A stretch of 64,000 nucleotides of DNA from an uncultured Pseudomonadota bacterium (GTDB lineage Bacteria > Myxococcota_A > UBA796 > SXON01). Positions 1,306-12,284 of the stretch are shown here, piece after piece. The notes under the pieces were generated by a model. It had not been told where the DNA came from. It did no database searches and worked only from the letters and a program-made list of their open reading frames with translations. The stretch lies in NCBI GenBank assembly GCA_903891165.1, contig CAITDR010000566.1, positions 21,519 to 85,518 on the forward strand. The letters run 5' to 3'. Numbering within the stretch: position 1 is the stretch's first letter; each line of letters opens with the position of its first letter. Made by a program: the position numbers and the translations under genes.

Positions 1306-1388
1306 AGGCTCCTTCCGAATGCTCAGGGAGGGTGCAATTTGAAACGGCGCCGCTTCTGGTGTATACCCAGAAGTCGCGCGGAGGCGCC

Positions 1389-3002
1389 ATGTTGGGCATT
1401 CTTCTCAGCTTTTCTCCGGTAATGGCGTCGACACTGGACGCACGGGGCGATCTTGTCTTCTCGGAATTTATGGCTGACACCAGTGCGGGTGGTCAGGTAC
1501 CCGAGTATTACGGTGAGTGGTTTGAGGTGTACAACAACTCAGGCGCCACTCAGGATCTCGCCGGGGTGTCCTTCCAGGTCAGCACCAACGGCGGCCAGGA
1601 CTGGAACAGTTTTGTAGTCCAGGGTACACTTCTGGTGGGTGCCTACGACTACGTCGTCTTCGGGGTCAGCAAGAACCAGGACAGCGCCGTGGCCAAGTGG
1701 AATGGCAACATTCCGGTGGACTACGAGTATAAGTTCTTCGATGTCAGTGTTCCTACCTACCGTTTTGACCTGTCCGCCCCTCAGAGCTGGGTACAGGTCT
1801 ACAACGAAGACGGCGCGGTGATGCTGGACGAGGTGAAGTGGGATCCCTCCTGGGGTGCCATTGGCGACAATGCCTTGTCGGTGGCGGACAATACACTGTC
1901 GGTGGAATGGGCCAATGACTTTGCGGTCAACTGGTGCCTCTCGGACACGCTGATCCAGCCCTCGGGTCTCAAAGGGACGCCGGGCGTGCAGAATGGCGTC
2001 ACCAATGCCTTCTATTGCGCCGCGAGTCCCGGACTCGATGCCGACGGGGATGGCTGGTCCCCTGCCCAGGGCGACTGCAAAGACGACCACGCGGATGTAT
2101 ATCCGGGCGCTGTCGACGCGGGGACGGGAGACCGCTTCAACACCGACGACGACTGTGATGGCGTGCGCGACGACGGCGAGACCGATGACGACGGGGATGG
2201 CTACTCCGAAGTCGGCGGCGACTGCGACGACGAAGACTCCACCACCTACCCCGGCGTACAGGAGATTGTGGACGGGGAGGACGACGACTGCAACGGTTGC
2301 ATCGACGATATCGACGACGACGGAGATAGCTTTTCCGAGTGTCCCGCCATGGTGGACCTGGACGGCGATGGCATCGCGGATGATCCCTGGTACGACTGCG
2401 ACGATGCCAACGCCAACATCAATCCTCGGGAAGCTGACATCCCGTACAATGCCGTGGACGAAGACTGCAGCGGGTTGACCGGCATTCTCGGTGCTCCCTT
2501 TAACCCTGAGGACCTCTGCGACGTGGACGAAGATGGCTTCGGTTCGGTCACGGCGGTCAATCCCAACTACTGCGAAGATCCGCAAAATGTCACCGACTGC
2601 GACGACATCAACCCCGCCATCCACCCGGGTGTAGTAGAGGATCCCGACGACGGTCTGGACAATGATTGCGACGGAGTCATCGATATTCCCGATAGGGATG
2701 AGGATGGCTACACCGAGGATATGGGAGATTGTATGGACATCTCCCAGGCCGACCTGGAAGGGGTTGACGATGCCGCCGCCATCTACGAGCTGGCCCGGTC
2801 GGTGCATCCCGATGCCGACGAGGTCTGCGGGGATCTGGTGGACAACGACTGCAACGGCTTTGCGGACGACCTGCCCTCCTGCCAAAACCCTGCTGCCTAC
2901 GGCATTTTGAGTGGTGGCGGCCTCTGTGCGGTGGCTCCCGACGCGATGCCCGGTTTGGGACTGCTGGTAGGGCTGCTTTTGATCTCTCGTCGGCGCTCCT
3001 GA
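1389..3002 (+). CDS. secreted protein with lamin-tail-like domain, DxDxDGD metal-binding repeats (MopRG-type) and C-terminal TM plus basic sorting-like tail
   Basis: VFSEFMADTS..GEWFEVYNNS (LTD-like); repeated DxDGDGxxxxxGDCDDxDxxxxPGA; ends MPGLGLLVGLLLISRRRS. Confidence 0.8.
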   Translation: MLGILLSFSPVMASTLDARGDLVFSEFMADTSAGGQVPEYYGEWFEVYNNSGATQDLAGVSFQVSTNGGQDWNSFVVQGTLLVGAYDYVVFGVSKNQDSAVAKWNGNIPVDYEYKFFDVSVPTYRFDLSAPQSWVQVYNEDGAVMLDEVKWDPSWGAIGDNALSVADNTLSVEWANDFAVNWCLSDTLIQPSGLKGTPGVQNGVTNAFYCAASPGLDADGDGWSPAQGDCKDDHADVYPGAVDAGTGDRFNTDDDCDGVRDDGETDDDGDGYSEVGGDCDDEDSTTYPGVQEIVDGEDDDCNGCIDDIDDDGDSFSECPAMVDLDGDGIADDPWYDCDDANANINPREADIPYNAVDEDCSGLTGILGAPFNPEDLCDVDEDGFGSVTAVNPNYCEDPQNVTDCDDINPAIHPGVVEDPDDGLDNDCDGVIDIPDRDEDGYTEDMGDCMDISQADLEGVDDAAAIYELARSVHPDADEVCGDLVDNDCNGFADDLPSCQNPAAYGILSGGGLCAVAPDAMPGLGLLVGLLLISRRRS

Positions 3003-3014
3003 GGGAAGAAGAAC

Positions 3015-4838
3015 ATGTTGCTGGCGCTGCTCACCCTCTCCACCTCCGCCTTCGCCCAGAATGCCGAGGATCTGACTATCGACTTCGAGCTGTTCCGTCC
3101 GCAAGCGGACAGCTACGGCTACTCGGTCATCCAGGGAGCCACCACCCTCTCCAACCTGCAATTGGGCGCGGGCTTCTGGATCAACTACGAAAATGATCCG
3201 GTTGTACTTCGCGATGCGGCGGGGAACCGCCTATCGGTGGGGGGCGGCGACGCCTCCAAGGACAGCGGCGACGGCTTTGTGGAACATCGGATCACCGCCA
3301 ACATCCAGGCGGGCATGGGCTTCACGCGCTATGCCAGCTTGAGTGTGGATCTTCCGCTGGTGGTCTCTCAGCAGGCCTGGACCACGGATGCGCTGAACGA
3401 TCCGACCGTGGACCCGTTGCTCGGGCCGTCGGCCGGTCTCGGCGACATTCGCTTGATCCCCAAAGTTGCCATCCTGGACCGCGACAAATTCCCCATCGGC
3501 CTTGCCATTGTGGTGCCGGTAGGTCTGCCCACGGGGGGGGCCTCGGGTTTCCTGGGGGAGAAAAACGTCACCCTGGCCCCCACGGTGGCGGTGGAGTGGT
3601 CCAACGCCTCCATCCGTAGCAAAGACTACATGATTCGCGCGGCGGCCAACGTCGGCTATCTGGTGCGCACGAACGAAGCGCGGGTACGCGATACGCGGCT
3701 GGGAAGTTCTGTAATGTACGGATTGGGGGTGGGTGTACACCCCATTACGCCCTTGGAGATCAACCTGGAATTCCACGGGCAGTCCTATGGCGGGCGTGCC
3801 TCGCAGAATCCGGCTGAGCTGTTGCTGGGTGCGAAGATTTTTGCGGGAGAGGTGGTGGTGGTCAACGTCGGTGGTGGGCTCGGCCTGCTCTCCGGCGTCG
3901 GTTCTCCCGACGCACGTGTGTATGCGGGACTACAGTTCATTCCGAATTTCGATCCGGCCATGCGTGACTCTGATGGGGACGACATCACCGATGGCACCGA
4001 CGGCTGTCCCAAGGACCAGGAGGATATGGACGGCTACCAGGATACCGATGGTTGCCCCGAGCTGGACAACGATGCCGACGGTCGCGAGGATGCCGTGGAC
4101 AAGTGCCCCGACGATCCCGAGGACGACGACGGCTACATGGACAACGATGGCTGTCCCGATGCCGACAACGACAAAGATGGCGTAGGCGACGACATGGACC
4201 GCTGTCCGGACGAGGCGGAGATCGTCAACAACTACATGGACGAGGACGGCTGCCCGGACAGCAGCGATACCGACGGCGACGGCTATGCCGACGACGTGGA
4301 TCGCTGTCCCTATGACGCCGAGGATAAGGACAAGTTTGAAGACCAGGATGGCTGCCCCGAGTTGGACAACGACGGCGACGCAATTCCCGACGCCGTGGAT
4401 CAGTGCCCCAACCAGCGTGAGGTCTACAACAACGTCACCGATGAAGATGGCTGTCCCGACGACTCCTCCCGTGTTGTGGTGGAGGCAAGCCAGATTCGCA
4501 TCAACGATGTGATCTTCTTTGATGCGGGCAAGGCGACGATCCAGCAGCGCAGCTACGATCTGCTCAATGAGATCGCGGCGGTGGTGGTGGCGCACCCGGA
4601 GATCAAAAAAATCCGCGTGGAAGGCCATACGGACTCCGATGGCAACGATCTTGCCAACCTCAAGCTCTCGCAGGCGCGTGCCGAGTCGGTACGGGCCTAC
4701 CTGGTCAGCAAGGGGGTCGAGGCCGAGCGCCTGGATCCTGCGGGCTTCGGCGAAGCGCGGCCCATCGCCGACAACAAGAGCAGCGATGGAAAAGCGAAAA
4801 ACCGGCGTGTAGAGTTCGTGATCGTCGAACGTCAGTAG
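3015..4838 (+). CDS. OmpA-family outer membrane protein with thrombospondin type-3-like repeats
   Basis: Signal peptide, beta-barrel-like N-half, DxDGDGxxDxxDxCPxxxED repeats, C-terminal OmpA/MotB domain (IRVEGHTDSDGNDLANLKLSQARAESVRAYLVSKGV). Confidence 0.88.
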   Translation: MLLALLTLSTSAFAQNAEDLTIDFELFRPQADSYGYSVIQGATTLSNLQLGAGFWINYENDPVVLRDAAGNRLSVGGGDASKDSGDGFVEHRITANIQAGMGFTRYASLSVDLPLVVSQQAWTTDALNDPTVDPLLGPSAGLGDIRLIPKVAILDRDKFPIGLAIVVPVGLPTGGASGFLGEKNVTLAPTVAVEWSNASIRSKDYMIRAAANVGYLVRTNEARVRDTRLGSSVMYGLGVGVHPITPLEINLEFHGQSYGGRASQNPAELLLGAKIFAGEVVVVNVGGGLGLLSGVGSPDARVYAGLQFIPNFDPAMRDSDGDDITDGTDGCPKDQEDMDGYQDTDGCPELDNDADGREDAVDKCPDDPEDDDGYMDNDGCPDADNDKDGVGDDMDRCPDEAEIVNNYMDEDGCPDSSDTDGDGYADDVDRCPYDAEDKDKFEDQDGCPELDNDGDAIPDAVDQCPNQREVYNNVTDEDGCPDDSSRVVVEASQIRINDVIFFDAGKATIQQRSYDLLNEIAAVVVAHPEIKKIRVEGHTDSDGNDLANLKLSQARAESVRAYLVSKGVEAERLDPAGFGEARPIADNKSSDGKAKNRRVEFVIVERQ

Positions 4839-4911: not shown

Positions 4912-7029
4912 ATGCTGGGAATGATCAGTCTGGTTCTGGGCGGGGGCACTGCTTTTCTGGGCGATACCCCCCTCTACGCCGGGGAAAAGAACGCGATCCA
5001 CCTGTACTATGTGGTCGGCCCCGAGGGCATGGCCGTCGGGGATCAGATCCGCATTCTTGATCCGGTCTTCCACGGGGTCCGCTGGAATCGCTGGGGGAAC
5101 CTTCTGCTGGATCCGACAGCCTGTACGCCGGCAAAGGAACAGGATTTCTCCGATCCCGAGGCGTCGCGCGGGCTGATTTCCGTCGCCACCGACGGCAGCG
5201 CTCAGCTCCTTCTGGGCCGCACGGTCTCGGTCGACGGCGGTAGCTCGCTGGTAAATGCCTACACCCTGGTGGAGCTGGTCGATGGTCAGCTGCAGCCGGG
5301 GGAGGTGATCGAGGTGATCCTGGGGGACAACCGCGAGAATTCTGACTGCGGCCAGCAGCTTCCCGGCCACGCCTGGCGTCAGGTCAGCCTTGTGGTGGAT
5401 GAGCAGCTGGGGGGCGGGGGATGGCTTCCGCTGGCGGAAAGCCCCACTTTTGACATCCTCCCGCTGCCGGAGCTGGTGCGGCTCTCTGTCTATGTGCCCT
5501 CACAGGTGCAGGTGGGGCAGCCGTTTACGGTGAAAGTGTCACCCATGGATCGGCGTGGGAACCCGCTGCGCACCTGGACGGGGCGGGTGGAGCTGAGCGC
5601 GGACTATGGGGGAGGTAGTTGGACCTTTGGACCGGATGATCAGGGTTTTCACGACTTTTCTGTCCGTATTGACAGCCCCGGTGTCCACCGCATCTCTCTG
5701 AGTGCGGATTCCCTCTCTGGTCGCTCCAACCCAGTGGAAGTAGTGGAGGAACTTCCTCCTCTTCGGACATTTTGGGGAGACCTTCATGTACACCAGGGTC
5801 ACGACTATTTGGAGGATGGGGAGTCTATCGACGAGAACATCTTCTATGCCCGCGACATCGTAGGTCTGGATTTTGTTACTGAGGCGATGAAGGCCGATCC
5901 GGACTGCCTGGAAAGTGTGGCCCTCTGGGAGCACCTGAAAGAGCAATGTCGTACCCAGAGTGTGGACGACCAATTTATCTATTTTCAAGGTTTTGAGTGG
6001 ATGGGAACCCACTTCGATAACCAGACGGGCCACCACAATTTTTATGTGGACAGCTGTGAAGTGGACCGCCCCGCCTACGCCAGCGATGAGACGACGGGGG
6101 GCATCGACGACTTCGGCACCGGTGGGGGGCCCTATGAGTGGGCAGAGACGATGGCCCAGCAGGGTTTTCGCACGGTGATCGTGCCGCATGCCACCCGCTA
6201 CACCACCTTTGCCTGGACCGGCGACTCCATCAACAACACCTATCGCCGCGCCGCCGAAGTGTACTCGGGCTGGGGGATCTCCATCGAGCCCTTCGGCCAG
6301 CGCGGCAGCGTGGTGGACGGCCTGAATTCGGGAAATCGGATGGGCTTTCTTGCTGCATCCGACAGCCACAATGGCTGGGCCACCAACCCGGTAGCGGAAT
6401 ACGACAATACGCCGGGTGTAGCTGCATTTCTGGCCCCCCGCCTGGGCCGAAGTGAGCTGATGGACGCCCTGCAGGCGCGACGCAGCTACGCCACGACGGG
6501 CGCACGGATCTTGATGCACGCCACCATCCAGGATGGAGGCGAGGAAGTTTTGATGGGCAGTCAGTACATGGCGCAGGCACCGACCTTATTCTGGGAGGCC
6601 CACGGGACCGACGTGATCGGGTTGGTGCGGGTGGTAGCCTTGCCCATCGAGGAGGATGCCGAGGCGGTGGAGGTCTGCCGGGTCAATCCGGGCACGGAAG
6701 ATGCAAGTGGAAGCTGCGAAATCCCTTGGGATGGCACGCAGGAAACGGCGGTATGGGTGCAGCTGACCCAGGAAGACGGCCAGCAGGCCTGGGCCTCGCC
6801 CTGGTGGCTGTCGGTGGACTGCAAAGGGGAGGGGGTCACCGATCCCCTGGGCCGCTGTGCGCCCGTGGACTCGGCGCCGGAGAGCGGAGCTGTTGATTCA
6901 ACCCCCAAGGATAGCAAACCAGAAGCTCCTGATCCCCGCTGTGGCTGCGGAGAGGGTTCGGCGTTGTTGCTGGTTGCCCTGGGGTGGGGATGGAGGAAGA
7001 GAAGGAAAGTAGCGGATAAGTCAGCGTGA
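4912..7029 (+). CDS. DUF3604-type (PHP-like) secreted protein with C-terminal sorting-like tail
   Basis: FWGDLHVHQGHDYLEDGESIDENIFYARDIVGLDFVTEA, GFLAASDSHNG; C-terminal CGCGEGSALLLVALGWGWRKRRK. Confidence 0.75.
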   Translation: MLGMISLVLGGGTAFLGDTPLYAGEKNAIHLYYVVGPEGMAVGDQIRILDPVFHGVRWNRWGNLLLDPTACTPAKEQDFSDPEASRGLISVATDGSAQLLLGRTVSVDGGSSLVNAYTLVELVDGQLQPGEVIEVILGDNRENSDCGQQLPGHAWRQVSLVVDEQLGGGGWLPLAESPTFDILPLPELVRLSVYVPSQVQVGQPFTVKVSPMDRRGNPLRTWTGRVELSADYGGGSWTFGPDDQGFHDFSVRIDSPGVHRISLSADSLSGRSNPVEVVEELPPLRTFWGDLHVHQGHDYLEDGESIDENIFYARDIVGLDFVTEAMKADPDCLESVALWEHLKEQCRTQSVDDQFIYFQGFEWMGTHFDNQTGHHNFYVDSCEVDRPAYASDETTGGIDDFGTGGGPYEWAETMAQQGFRTVIVPHATRYTTFAWTGDSINNTYRRAAEVYSGWGISIEPFGQRGSVVDGLNSGNRMGFLAASDSHNGWATNPVAEYDNTPGVAAFLAPRLGRSELMDALQARRSYATTGARILMHATIQDGGEEVLMGSQYMAQAPTLFWEAHGTDVIGLVRVVALPIEEDAEAVEVCRVNPGTEDASGSCEIPWDGTQETAVWVQLTQEDGQQAWASPWWLSVDCKGEGVTDPLGRCAPVDSAPESGAVDSTPKDSKPEAPDPRCGCGEGSALLLVALGWGWRKRRKVADKSA

Positions 7030-7053: not shown

Positions 7054-8574
7054 CTATCGAAACACGGTAACCCGGTAGGCGCCGCTCACCGCCCCTTCTT
7101 TCAAAAAGGGTGCTTCGGCTACCGCAAGGCGCAGGCCCTCCGGGGCATAGGCAGGCCGGAAGAAGGCCGGACCTTCCGTGGGGCAGAGAGCGCGGATAGT
7201 TCCGCTTTCACGCTCCAGAACCACGGCACCGTACAGATCGGTGCGGGTGTCGGTGGAGCGGGCGCCCGCCGCGGCCAGCAGCTCCCGCCCGTCGGGGGAG
7301 GGGAGCAGGCCGACCAGGGCGTGGTCCAGCTGGCGGCTCCAGAGCTTTTTGCCGTCCCGGTCGTAGGCGTGGACGCTGTTCTGGGCCGGGTGTGCCGCGG
7401 GGGGGCGGGCCATGGGGTCGCTGCTGCCGAAGGGGATGGTGGTCTCTGTGGTGAGGAGATAGCTGTTGTCCTGGTACAAGGTTGCAAAACCTACACCAGC
7501 GGCGATGGGTACTCCTTTACTTAGCTGCGGTACACCCGGACTGAGCACCGCCACATCCTGCCCGTCGCGGTCCAGCAGAAAAGCCCGACCGTCCCCGAGC
7601 CCGGCCACCAGCCGATCCTGGCCCAGCCCCAGGCCCTCCCAGATGAAGACGCTCTGGAAATAGGGCTTCAAGACGTCAAAACGACGACCCCAGCGCATGC
7701 CCAGCGGATCCAGAGAGAACAGTGCGATGCCCCCAATGGGCAGCCCGGCGGGGTCCGGTCCGTCGGCAGAGCGGGAAATGGAGACCAGCAATTGAGAGCC
7801 AGAGACCACGGGATGGAGCATCACCGCATCGGCAGGGCCGGAAGGTGGCCAGGCTTCCAGAAGCTCACCGTCGGCGCGCAGGTGGTAGAGGCGGGACCGG
7901 TTCTGGCGGCCCTTGCCCGCGGGCGTCCATCCGTGGGCACCGACCACCAACAGGCTTTGATCCTCCAAAAGCTGGAGGCTGTAGACACCGGGCAGGTTGT
8001 AGACGCCGTAGGCATCCTCCGGCGGAGGCATGGGGCTGCTCTCCAGATCCTCGGCCAACCGCCGGCTCCATTTTTGTTCGAGGCTGGTCGAATCCAAGGC
8101 GACGACCATCGCATCTGGAGACTGCTCGCCGTAGTAGAGCGTCTGGCCATCCGCACTCCACAAGAGCTGCTTCACCATGCCCTCGGACAGCTTCTTCTCC
8201 ACCAGGGGCTTTCCGTTCCAACCATCCACAATCCGCAGCAGACCTCCAAAACTACCAATGGCGAGGCGCTGCCCGTCGGGCGAAAAGGCCAGGGCGGCGT
8301 CGGGAGCGGGGGCGCCCAGCGACACCAGGCGACTCTGGTCCTCCAGGGTGACCTGGAAAATCGGCCGACAATCTGCCATTAGCGGCGTGGGCAGGCCTTT
8401 GAGCGCGGGGATCTGCTCCCAGGGGCCTTCGGCCAAAACCCGACCATCTGCAAGGATCTTCCCCGGATTCCCGGCGGGGAGTAGGGCACCGTCGCGCAAG
8501 AAGATGGGATCGGCCGCAGGCGGAGGGGGGAGGGGAGCATCCTCCGTACATGCCCAGAGCAACAACAGCATCAT
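7054..8574 (-). CDS. beta-propeller (WD40/PQQ-like) lipoprotein
   Basis: MMLLLLWACTED lipobox; repeated blade-like segments (ALAFSPDGQRLAIGSFGGLLRIVDGWNG; LLWSADGQTLYYGEQSPDAMVVALDS). Confidence 0.7.
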   Translation of the reverse strand: MMLLLLWACTEDAPLPPPPAADPIFLRDGALLPAGNPGKILADGRVLAEGPWEQIPALKGLPTPLMADCRPIFQVTLEDQSRLVSLGAPAPDAALAFSPDGQRLAIGSFGGLLRIVDGWNGKPLVEKKLSEGMVKQLLWSADGQTLYYGEQSPDAMVVALDSTSLEQKWSRRLAEDLESSPMPPPEDAYGVYNLPGVYSLQLLEDQSLLVVGAHGWTPAGKGRQNRSRLYHLRADGELLEAWPPSGPADAVMLHPVVSGSQLLVSISRSADGPDPAGLPIGGIALFSLDPLGMRWGRRFDVLKPYFQSVFIWEGLGLGQDRLVAGLGDGRAFLLDRDGQDVAVLSPGVPQLSKGVPIAAGVGFATLYQDNSYLLTTETTIPFGSSDPMARPPAAHPAQNSVHAYDRDGKKLWSRQLDHALVGLLPSPDGRELLAAAGARSTDTRTDLYGAVVLERESGTIRALCPTEGPAFFRPAYAPEGLRLAVAEAPFLKEGAVSGAYRVTVFR

Positions 8575-8834
8575 GGAAGCTCCCATAGCAGAAAAATATC
8601 GTCGCAAGGCAGATTGTCCAGGCGCCCGAGTCTGCAGGCCGAGGTCTGGTCCAGACGCGCCAGCTCCCAGCTCCAGGTGGCGCAGGCATTTTTGAAGTCT
8701 GCCCGGTTGGTGTAGCCCATCGATGCGCTCCATTCCGGACCTTCGGAGCCTACACAGGCGGCGAAAAAATCTTCGGCCGCCGTGCAGTAGTCGGCACAGG
8801 GGTCCGGTGCACATGCCAGAAAAATCAACGCCAT
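8571..8834 (-). CDS. small Cys-rich lipoprotein
   Basis: MALIFLACAPDPCADYCTAAEDFFAACVG; overlaps both neighbours (ATGA with the gene below, 10 bp with the gene above); six Cys besides the lipobox Cys. Confidence 0.6.
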   Translation of the reverse strand: MALIFLACAPDPCADYCTAAEDFFAACVGSEGPEWSASMGYTNRADFKNACATWSWELARLDQTSACRLGRLDNLPCDDIFLLWELP

Positions 8835-9907
8835 GCCAGACTGCTCGGTGGGAGGGCGGTCACCAGCGGCTCGGCAGCATGGCAGGTGGCGGGATCCAAG
8901 GCCACCACCCCCTCCGTGCTGCTGCCGGTGCCAAAGCCGGGACGGATCGCCAACCACAAAAGCCCGTCGGGCCCAAAAGTGGCGTCCGAAACATAGAGGT
9001 TGCCACCCAGGGACTGACTCCGCGTACCGTCGGTCGCGACGCAAGACACATCCCACTGGTAGCCATCGTCGGAGATGACCACCCGGGAGCCGTCTTCCTC
9101 ACTACTTACAAAACCCAGGTTTGCGCCGTAGTCCTCCTCCCTCAAGAGCGGCTCACTCAGCGTGTCGGTGGCGGTGGTGAAGGACTGCACCCAGCCATCC
9201 AGCTCCACCTGCGCGCTGCCCTCGCCAAAGTAGTTGCCGCCGCCAATCAGGAATTGGCCGGGATGGCGGGAGTCCGGGTAGATGCTGGCATTCGGGCTGA
9301 CCTCCCAGTCGGCGATCACCTCCCAGGAGCTGCAGTCCACTTTCAGGAGCCGCCCCAAGCTTTCCGCACGATAGCTGGCGTTCAAGCGGTTCAAAGAAAC
9401 ATAGAGGAAGCCCTCCGGGGAGAGGTAGAGGTCGTCGGCCTCGGGCTCGCCGTCACCATCGTCCCAGGGGCTCAGATCCACCTGACCGGCGGGCTGGCCG
9501 GAAAGACTGTAGAGAGTAAGATAGTTGGCTTCATACAGCGCCACCACGACGCGGTCACCGCAAAAGACCACATCCTGGGGGTTGGTGGCATCACCGGTGC
9601 TGAACTCAGCCTCGGGGCTGCCCAGATCGTCGCCATACATACGCACTGTGTTTTCAGAGGAGCGCCCCAGAACAAACAATTTCCCGTCGGCGGCGGCCAC
9701 GGCGTTGTCGGCAGAGGTCAACAGCACACTGTCGCTCAACTGCCCGGTCCCGTCGTCCCAGAGCGCGAGCGCGCCGGTCTGGTAGTCGGTGGTCGCGATG
9801 GCCAGCTGTGCACCGGCGACCGGACCGCTGTCGTCCTCGGTGGGTGTTTTGGTGGAGTCAGAGTCCGGAACCTTGGGGATACAGGCCAGGAAAGACAGAA
9901 GGATCAT
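8825..9907 (-). CDS. beta-propeller lipoprotein, candidate BtuG-like partner of BtuB
   Basis: MILLSFLAC lipobox, YncE/SMP-30-like repeated strands (VAAADGKLFVLGRSSENTVRMYG; LYLSPEGFLYVSLNRLNAS); start overlaps the btuB stop. Confidence 0.65.
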   Translation of the reverse strand: MILLSFLACIPKVPDSDSTKTPTEDDSGPVAGAQLAIATTDYQTGALALWDDGTGQLSDSVLLTSADNAVAAADGKLFVLGRSSENTVRMYGDDLGSPEAEFSTGDATNPQDVVFCGDRVVVALYEANYLTLYSLSGQPAGQVDLSPWDDGDGEPEADDLYLSPEGFLYVSLNRLNASYRAESLGRLLKVDCSSWEVIADWEVSPNASIYPDSRHPGQFLIGGGNYFGEGSAQVELDGWVQSFTTATDTLSEPLLREEDYGANLGFVSSEEDGSRVVISDDGYQWDVSCVATDGTRSQSLGGNLYVSDATFGPDGLLWLAIRPGFGTGSSTEGVVALDPATCHAAEPLVTALPPSSLAWR

Positions 9908-11916
9908 TGGACACTCCGCCCGGTCCAGCGCAGCCCCACCAGGATGGTGCGACCGGGCAGCGGAAAACCGGTGAAATCAGTAAGGGGCTTTACAATCTCA
10001 GGGGACGGTGTGGGACTCAGGGGGTCCCGCGGTACGGCCATCCCACGCACGTCCAGCAGGTTCAGAATTTCCACCTCGAAGGTTGGCATTCCCGGAGCGG
10101 GCTGGCTCTGCAATGCCAGCCCGTGGAGGGGGCGGGGGGCGCTGCGCTGGTAGTTGGCGGGGTCCAGCCAGCTCGCACTGGTCCACGAAAAAGTGTATGT
10201 GAACCTGATCTTTTCTTCCCAGTTCAGGCCCAGGGACTGCGAAAAATCCAGGTCCGGCAGGCCGGGAAGGCTGCGGTTGGCATAGGTGGGGTCGGTCTGC
10301 AGGTTGCGGCTCTGCATCCAGGTCAGGCTGCTTTGGCCCTGGATCCACGGGGAAAAACCGGCCGTCAGGCTCAGCTCCACCGCGCGGATCCAGCCCTGGC
10401 CGATGTTCTGCGCCTGCTGGGTCTGCTGCGAATTCTGCACATAGACGATCAGGTTTTCCGCCCGATTTTCCGACCAGCTTCCGTCTACGGTCAGCCAGGC
10501 CTTTGGCCCGCAGAACTCCGTTCGGAAGCCCAGATCCCAAGCGGTGCCCTGCTCTGGCAGCAGCCGTGTATTCCCGACGATATTCCCCCGGTCCCCGAAA
10601 AGCTCCGAAAAATCCGGCGGACGGAGGTAGCGCCCCACATTGCCCTTCAGGCTCAGCCAAGGAGTCGGGCGTAGCAATAGCCCCATACGTGGAGTGAAGA
10701 CCAGGCTTTGATCCGTACCTTCGGGCGCTACCGGGCTGTCGGAATAGGGTACTTCCCCCAGAAGACGCGCGTCCAGCCACTCACCCTGGACCACCGGAAA
10801 AATGCCGATCTTCCCCTTCCAAAGCCTCAGATCGGCTGCCAAGGCCGCAGCACCCACAAAGCGACTGCGGGTGCCGTCCGCCTCCTCGATCAGCCGGTCA
10901 TAGGGTCGGTAGCTGTCCGCCCGCAGCCGCAGGTTGGCCGTCGCGATCAGCGAGGGCGACACCAGCCCCTTCGCCAGCAATTGCCCACCCAAAGTCTGCG
11001 ACTGGTCGCGACTCCACTGGGCGCCCACCCCGACCTCTCCCGACCGATCATTGAGCTGATCCTGGCGATACACCCACCAGAGATCCGGCTGCAGGCGGAA
11101 CAGGCCCAGCCGCTGGTCGTAGCGCAGGGCCAGCAAATTTCGGTCGGAGGAGAAGGTGGCGTTGATAGCCGGATTTGCGGCGTCACCGGGGAGTTGCTGG
11201 TGGCTGCTGCTGAAGGAATCCAGCAGGCTGAGCGTAAAATTAGGTTTTTCCAGCCGCAGCCGCCCCAGGGTGGAGAGGCGCCGGGTGGCGTTGTGGCTGC
11301 GTGTGCGCATCCGGTCGTCGGCGAGGTTGAACTCGGTGCCCCGGTCGTCAAACCAGCGCCAGTCGCCTTGGGTGGAGAGCCCGTCCACCGAAAGCAGAGC
11401 GTCTACCGGTCCTTTCTGCCCCGCCCACAGCCCTTCTGCATGCAGGCTGTCAAAGGAGCCCACACTCAGGCGCAGGCTCGGCGGGGGCGGAGACTCGGCG
11501 GTGACCAGGTTCACCACCCCTCCCATGGCCGCCGATCCGAAGTCAACCGGGGCGTTCCCCCTCCACAATTCTACACGGGCGAAGCTGAAGGCGGGCAGCT
11601 CGCTCAGGTCCACCACCGAAGCCCCGTCGGGGTTCAGCGGCAGCCCATCCAGAAAAATCTCTACATGCCGCAGGGAGCTTCCCCGGACGCTGAGCGCCGT
11701 AAAGCTGCCCAATCCGCCCAGGCGACGCACCTGCGTCCCGCTGGCCTGGGCCAGCACACTCCCCAGGTCCTGGCCCGGCGGCAGGGTGGGCCCCAGGCCC
11801 AGCACCGTCACCGCTCCGGCGGTCTGCCCTGGATCGGGCCCGGCCGCCTGCACCACAACTTCGTCGCCCGGCTCAGCCGGGGCGGCGATTGCAGCGAAGA
11901 TCCAGAACAGGTGCAC
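9904..11916 (-). CDS. btuB: TonB-dependent vitamin B12 (cobalamin) receptor
   Basis: Plug domain (VLGLGPTLPPGQDLGSVLAQASGTQVRRLGGLGSFTALSVRGSSLRHVEIFLDGLPLNPDG) and barrel; preceded by a cobalamin riboswitch. Confidence 0.85.
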   Translation of the reverse strand: MHLFWIFAAIAAPAEPGDEVVVQAAGPDPGQTAGAVTVLGLGPTLPPGQDLGSVLAQASGTQVRRLGGLGSFTALSVRGSSLRHVEIFLDGLPLNPDGASVVDLSELPAFSFARVELWRGNAPVDFGSAAMGGVVNLVTAESPPPPSLRLSVGSFDSLHAEGLWAGQKGPVDALLSVDGLSTQGDWRWFDDRGTEFNLADDRMRTRSHNATRRLSTLGRLRLEKPNFTLSLLDSFSSSHQQLPGDAANPAINATFSSDRNLLALRYDQRLGLFRLQPDLWWVYRQDQLNDRSGEVGVGAQWSRDQSQTLGGQLLAKGLVSPSLIATANLRLRADSYRPYDRLIEEADGTRSRFVGAAALAADLRLWKGKIGIFPVVQGEWLDARLLGEVPYSDSPVAPEGTDQSLVFTPRMGLLLRPTPWLSLKGNVGRYLRPPDFSELFGDRGNIVGNTRLLPEQGTAWDLGFRTEFCGPKAWLTVDGSWSENRAENLIVYVQNSQQTQQAQNIGQGWIRAVELSLTAGFSPWIQGQSSLTWMQSRNLQTDPTYANRSLPGLPDLDFSQSLGLNWEEKIRFTYTFSWTSASWLDPANYQRSAPRPLHGLALQSQPAPGMPTFEVEILNLLDVRGMAVPRDPLSPTPSPEIVKPLTDFTGFPLPGRTILVGLRWTGRSVQ

Positions 11917-11955
11917 AGGCTCTCAGGCGGAAAGAGAGCGTACACCAGGGGCGCA

Positions 11956-12175
11956 CACTGTCCTCCCCGACAGTGGGTTAATGAGCCTTAAAGGCCGGTC
12001 TCCTGGCTTCCGGATCAACCGTCTCTCCGTTCCCTTCCCGGCCGAAGCCAGTGGGGGGTGTTCAAAAACACCCAGGCGGAGGACGTACCCGGCTACAGTG
12101 GCGGGGGCCGCGCCGGATTTTAACCGGCTTCCCGTTTCACCCGCGCCGAAACGCGGGCACCTTCAAGGTACAGAG
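11956..12175 (-). ncRNA. cobalamin riboswitch (AdoCbl/B12 element) including downstream P13-like hairpin
   Basis: Minus strand reads GGGAAGCCGGTTAAAATCCGGCGCGGCCCCCGCCACTGTAGCCGGG...GAAGCCAGTGGG...CCGGAAGCCAGGAGACCGGCC; hairpin CACTGTC-GGGGAG-GACAGTG at 11956..11975. Confidence 0.93.
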
Positions 12176-12284
12176 GGCATGCAAAGAGCATTTGAGGTCT
12201 ATGCCTGCAGACTGCTCCTGTCAAAAGGCAAGGGCCTGCCTGCGGCCCTTCCTCCACGTCCTGTAGCCCTTCCCGCAGCCTTCC

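Follow-up and report, generated by a model that had tools for sequence, protein, structure and literature searches.

The window (the whole stretch of 64,000 nucleotides that was analysed) carries an operon in which an arrangement like the BtuB-BtuG pair of Bacteroidetes occurs in another phylum, Myxococcota, with putative new subunits. The reading that best explains the whole is a riboswitch-controlled operon for corrinoid (B12) acquisition, with the propeller lipoprotein P2 as a lid on a BtuB-like receptor (P1), the lipoproteins P3 and P4 as accessory components, and an inner-membrane step carried out by a further protein, P5, with an ECF-type transporter. We put the probability of this reading at roughly 0.8.

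Features of the putative corrinoid acquisition operon (positions in the window)
Feature	Position	Strand	Basis
Cobalamin riboswitch aptamer	11976..12179	-	RF00174, full-length match, 127.3 bits, E 1.3e-31
P1, BtuB-like TonB-dependent receptor, 670 aa	9904..11916	-	Pfam Plug + TonB_dep_Rec
P2, acidic BtuG-like propeller lipoprotein (360 aa, pI ~4)	8825..9907	-	AF2, Foldseek, profile
P3, small six-cysteine helical lipoprotein, 87 aa	8571..8834	-	24 aligned, AF2
P4, WD40/PQQ-type propeller lipoprotein, 506 aa	7054..8574	-	Profile vs WD40 structures

The aptamer is one of three RF00174 copies in the genome and is separated by 59 nt from the GTG start codon of P1. All consecutive genes overlap (P1/P2 by 4 nt, P2/P3 by 10 nt and P3/P4 by 4 nt), and the N-termini of P2, P3 and P4 each have a short lipoprotein signal with a lipobox (LSFLAC, IFLAC and LLWAC, respectively). 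In the original prediction, a minus-strand cobalamin riboswitch had been read from the DNA 5' of a TonB-dependent receptor gene, with three lipoprotein genes overlapping one after another behind it, and both the Rfam and Pfam matches and the re-examined coordinates, overlaps and lipoboxes agree with it. P1, P2, P3 and P4 are all conserved as proteins in related genomes. As the gene at 4912..7029 is on the opposite strand, the operon ends with P4. RNA folding past the riboswitch gave a stability that was not above that of shuffled sequences (z -1.1), and therefore no switching mechanism is claimed. Beyond the operon, the products of window positions 1332-3002 and 3015-4838 are rich in Asp-containing DxDxDG-type repeats and the latter has an OmpA-like C-terminus, based on reading the translations by eye.

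P1 has both domains of a TonB-dependent receptor (Plug, E 1.6e-13; barrel, E 1.6e-23). Its closest NCBIfam models are MxcH, a myxochelin receptor (E 2e-31), and BtuB TIGR01779 (E 3.5e-24), and in both cases the score falls far short of the curated cut-off (for the BtuB equivalog model, 85 bits where 600 are required). Among PDB sequences, the top match is 9gbc, a receptor-DUF4374 pair, and E. coli BtuB structures are among the best matches (E ~1e-13 across the plug).

P2 had been predicted to be a beta-propeller, and its AlphaFold (AF2) model, computed from the window protein with 21 homologs, bears this out: it is all beta with approximately 26 strands (pLDDT 86.5, pTM 0.85). A Foldseek search of the PDB with this model gave 1,240 matches with E ≤ 0.001, the best 15 of which are all Bacteroides BtuG or BtuB-BtuG structures (BtuG1, BtuG2 and BtuG3), most of them solved with B12. 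For these 15, the TM scores are 0.39-0.76 by target length and the identity is 13-14%. When a profile of 39 P2 homologs was run against all PDB chains, BtuG proteins were the only matches below E 0.001 (best 1.5e-5), ahead of other propellers. The relationship is visible only via profile or structure: as a single sequence, P2 matched nothing in Pfam, NCBIfam or the PDB sequences (phmmer), a single-protein scan of the genome contigs found no relative, so that profiles were needed, and the 39 homologs gave only stray matches in Pfam. Cys9 of P2, the predicted site of lipidation, is invariant across these homologs. The profile similarity suggests that P2 is a distant homolog of BtuG, beyond the mere analogy first proposed, and fold, profile and context all support counting it as a putative BtuG proper.

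The pocket of BtuG2 includes Trp194, Trp272 and Tyr316 (PMC10404256). In an alignment of the P2 profile with BtuG2, which is remote enough that single columns are untrustworthy, P2 lacks conserved counterparts of Trp194 and Trp272, and a conserved Tyr of P2 is one column off Tyr316. Because the two BtuG2 pocket tryptophans are not kept, the same binding mode is not claimed for P2, and its mode of B12 binding may differ from that of BtuG2. The tether of P2 is more acidic than those of P4 and the other lipoproteins of the loci (median net acid 8 versus 5, p 0.007). Surface-exported lipoproteins of Bacteroidetes have an acidic tether, and going by that pattern the P2 tether is weakly suggestive of surface export.

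A P2 homolog was identified in 55 of the 58 genomes of the window's order and, following a phylum-wide profile search, in 158 of 379 genomes of the phylum, which the titles of matching contigs (L095, L098) assign to Myxococcota. Genes were predicted with a codon-model script at 60 loci around P2 homologs, followed by an Rfam scan; linkage was then counted at the 54 loci (the window included) where 2.3 kb or more of sequence precedes P2. A TonB receptor on the same strand lies directly upstream of P2 at 47 of these loci and no receptor is adjacent at the other seven, while a same-strand cobalamin riboswitch is found within 4.5 kb upstream at 41 of 54. The P1-P2 junction is overlapping in 23 of 51 cases, and in 22 the overlap measures exactly 4 nt. 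As the window genome has only about 11 TonB receptors in total, chance linkage of this extent is negligible. Twenty of the P2 loci examined are from outside the window's order, and most of these are also from outside its class. Here the receptor is directly upstream in 14 of 20, and a receptor or riboswitch is nearby in L142, L146, L149 and L150; the linkage also holds for distant homologs from outside the class (L141, L143-L145, L147, L148, L151 and L154). The predicted synteny of btuB with a propeller gene is thus found across the phylum and, together with a fold and profile nearest to BtuG, it upholds the suggestion of a BtuG-like protein outside Bacteroidetes.

Some of these loci have features of their own. 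At L042, the operon runs on into CbiP and CbiB, and at L145 into BtuC- and BtuD-like genes and CbiR, a cobamide-remodelling phosphodiesterase (L145:6445-7257, above the family cut-off) that thus lies in a BtuB-P2-BtuCD operon. Divergent second P2 paralogs are found at L062:3261-4520, where the ECF gene of that cluster immediately precedes the paralog, and at L053:6452-7714, away from any TonB receptor. L064 (G010:C215) has two mirror-image copies of the operon, an arrangement that resembles an assembly artefact. Four MAG contigs that bear a Myxococcota-type operon (L078, L080, L083 and L099) have titles naming Klebsiella pneumoniae or Bifidobacterium breve, and these titles look mislabelled.

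The two remaining lipoproteins are more narrowly distributed. P3, which had been singled out as a tiny Cys-rich component, proved to be a conserved family present in most loci of the window's order. It has seven cysteines: one for lipidation and six others that, like one Trp, do not vary among 24 homologs. Its AF2 model is helical (pLDDT 87) and gave no match in a fold search against the PDB. P4 shares 38-55% identity with 17 relatives, occurs mainly in the window's own family and is found chiefly where P5 and ECF genes are. A profile of the family finds WD40 propellers with a best E of 1e-27, the matches falling mostly within profile positions ~60-176, and by this profile P4 is classed as a WD40-type propeller. 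The profile thus supports the proposed second propeller-like lipoprotein, of a type different from BtuG.

In relatives of the window genome, P4 is followed by P5 and then by an ECF-type ATPase-ATPase-CbiQ module, with matches to PF00005 (CbiO-type ATPases), PF02361 (CbiQ) and ECF ATPase models. P5 is a conserved protein of ~570 aa with a lipoprotein start, an N-terminal lipoprotein domain of ~350 aa and several C-terminal transmembrane segments. It matched none of the S-component families, and a weak DUF5862 match was seen in one member only; topology and neighbours point to P5 as a putative S-component. Gene order is permuted at L072 (P4-P5-ATPase-CbiQ-BtuB-P2-P3), with the genes still together. 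The window genome has P5 and the ATPases at C155:2404-5465 and CbiQ at C155:20032-20835. Loss of the ECF genes from this genome was considered and rejected, as they lie on C155, with ~14.5 kb between CbiQ and the ATPases. An Rfam scan found no riboswitch at the C155 ECF genes.

A search for a BtuC-family (FecCD) permease found none in the window genome and was positive in 13 of 14 control genomes; as the window genome is 84% complete, this absence is not final. When FecCD was counted only at E < 1e-40 across the 58 relatives, 30 had P5 only, 12 had FecCD only, 10 had both and six had neither (Fisher p 0.004), and the six genomes without either are all <90% complete. FecCD proteins also serve siderophores. 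For this reason, and because related genomes are not independent, the pattern speaks for a P5-ECF route in place of BtuCD without establishing it.

A mechanism may be proposed on this basis. Going by the riboswitch only, expression would be controlled by B12, with low B12 permitting synthesis of the BtuB-like receptor and the three lipoproteins. Lipid-anchored P2 would most likely be positioned over BtuB at the cell surface, where it would capture corrinoids and pass them to BtuB; we infer this role, and with it B12 binding, surface exposure and complex formation with BtuB, because of the fold of P2, its relationship to BtuG and its linkage. P3 and P4 would be accessory subunits that probably stabilise or extend the capture complex or take the corrinoid on the periplasmic side. 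Transport from the periplasm to the cytoplasm would most likely be carried out by an ECF transporter made up of P5, two CbiO-type ATPase domains and CbiQ instead of by BtuCDF, a route proposed because of the operon structure and the complementary distribution of P5 and FecCD. Whether all of these parts make up an undescribed and complete outer-to-inner-membrane corrinoid machine of Myxococcota (BtuB, a BtuG-family lid, P3 and P4 as stable subunits, and, in place of BtuF and BtuC, an ECF transporter in which P5 joins the S-component to a lipid-anchored periplasmic capture domain) is a more tentative matter, and we would give it slightly worse than even odds.

The orientation of the lipoproteins is not fixed by the sequence here, and P2 and P4 might both face the periplasm, taking B12 after BtuB to the inner-membrane ECF transporter and replacing BtuF, with no surface lid. 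The lack of a detected FecCD permease in the window genome and the co-occurrence of P4 mainly with P5 and ECF genes are in keeping with such an arrangement, and P4 as a periplasm-facing relay is quite possible. For P2, however, the nearest relative is the surface protein BtuG, homologs are found also in genomes that have FecCD, and the tether is more acidic than in P4 and the other lipoproteins, as in Bacteroidetes surface export. We therefore consider a purely periplasmic relay to be unlikely.

It is less likely again that the receptor and propeller import another ligand, such as a cobalt chelate or metallophore, in the manner of XusAB with xenosiderophores. P1 resembles siderophore receptors too, the 9gbc receptor-DUF4374 pair tops its PDB sequence matches, and XusB propellers are among the weaker fold matches of P2, but BtuG outranks XusB in both the fold and the profile searches, corrinoid salvage genes are among the neighbours, and cobalamin riboswitches lie upstream at most loci (41/54). 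A still smaller probability is assigned to P2 being a generic propeller with no kinship to BtuG, similar in shape through convergence and in the operon by happenstance. Propellers match easily and the structural identity is just 13-14%; against this, two independent methods place BtuG on top, over many other propellers, and the btuB linkage is phylum-wide.

The other two cobalamin riboswitches of the window genome also precede lipoprotein genes. The second (G000:C76:375-555) is followed by a lipoprotein (L076:514-1842) that matches nothing in Pfam and consists of a ~109-aa unit repeated three times, and this repeat is found in the P2 or riboswitch loci L041, L065, L047, L146 and L157 as well. 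The third (G000:C626:10160-10292) is followed by a lipoprotein (L077:6377-7090) with a weak relationship to the LIC_13355 family (NF033170), homologs of which are found in at least 10 P2/B12 loci, with the L041 copy above the family cut-off. The LIC_13355 family has been studied in Leptospira for its binding activities; it may be B12-related.

BtuG homologs were previously found exclusively in Bacteroidetes using BlastP (PMC6143338), and the divergence of P2 would explain why BlastP missed BtuG in Myxococcota. Among the papers searched, none describes BtuG in Myxococcota, and the search turned up only a DUF4465 paper. Crowding in the gut had been discussed as the condition to which the origin of BtuG was a response. 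With a BtuG-like protein tied to BtuB across Myxococcota, including MAGs with lake titles, this gut-competition idea becomes testable, and BtuG must be either older in origin or have been transferred from one phylum to another. Several lipoprotein families also join the list of likely B12-related proteins. As many Gram-negative B12 auxotrophs have BtuB and lack BtuCDF (PMC6072759), the operon offers candidates for the missing B12 transport steps.

Among known systems, ECF-CbrT and the solitary S-component-like BtuM, which was also found via co-localisation with btuB (PMC6072759), share ECF ATPases, CbiQ and an S-component-like membrane partner with the system described here, while P5 differs in its N-terminal lipoprotein domain and in matching no known S-component family. 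The E. coli BtuB-BtuF-BtuCD system similarly has a TonB-dependent B12 receptor and riboswitch control, but it has no surface lipoprotein, and the window genome has no detected FecCD/BtuC permease. XusA/XusB also pairs a TonB receptor with a surface propeller lipoprotein (DUF4374); its ligand, however, is a siderophore, and P2 matches it more weakly than BtuG. The B12-binding lipoproteins BtuH and BtuJ1/J2 (DUF4465) are likewise accessory and riboswitch-controlled, and Pfam DUF4465 was matched neither by P2-P4 nor by the two other riboswitch-linked lipoproteins of the genome. BtuG is a seven-bladed beta-propeller that binds B12 with femtomolar affinity and forms a stable complex with BtuB. BtuG/BtuB of Bacteroides thetaiotaomicron (8BMX, 8BLW, 8P97, 8P98; PMC10404256, PMC6143338) has the same lipid-anchored propeller beside a TonB-dependent BtuB and a cobalamin riboswitch, and is nearest to P2 in both solved fold and profile. 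It differs in belonging to another phylum, in its low identity to P2 (~13-14%) and in its key pocket aromatics (of BtuG2), which are not conserved in P2; in addition, the Myxococcota system has P3 and P4 as conserved extra, putative subunits, and in the window's family its partner would be an ECF transporter rather than BtuFCD.
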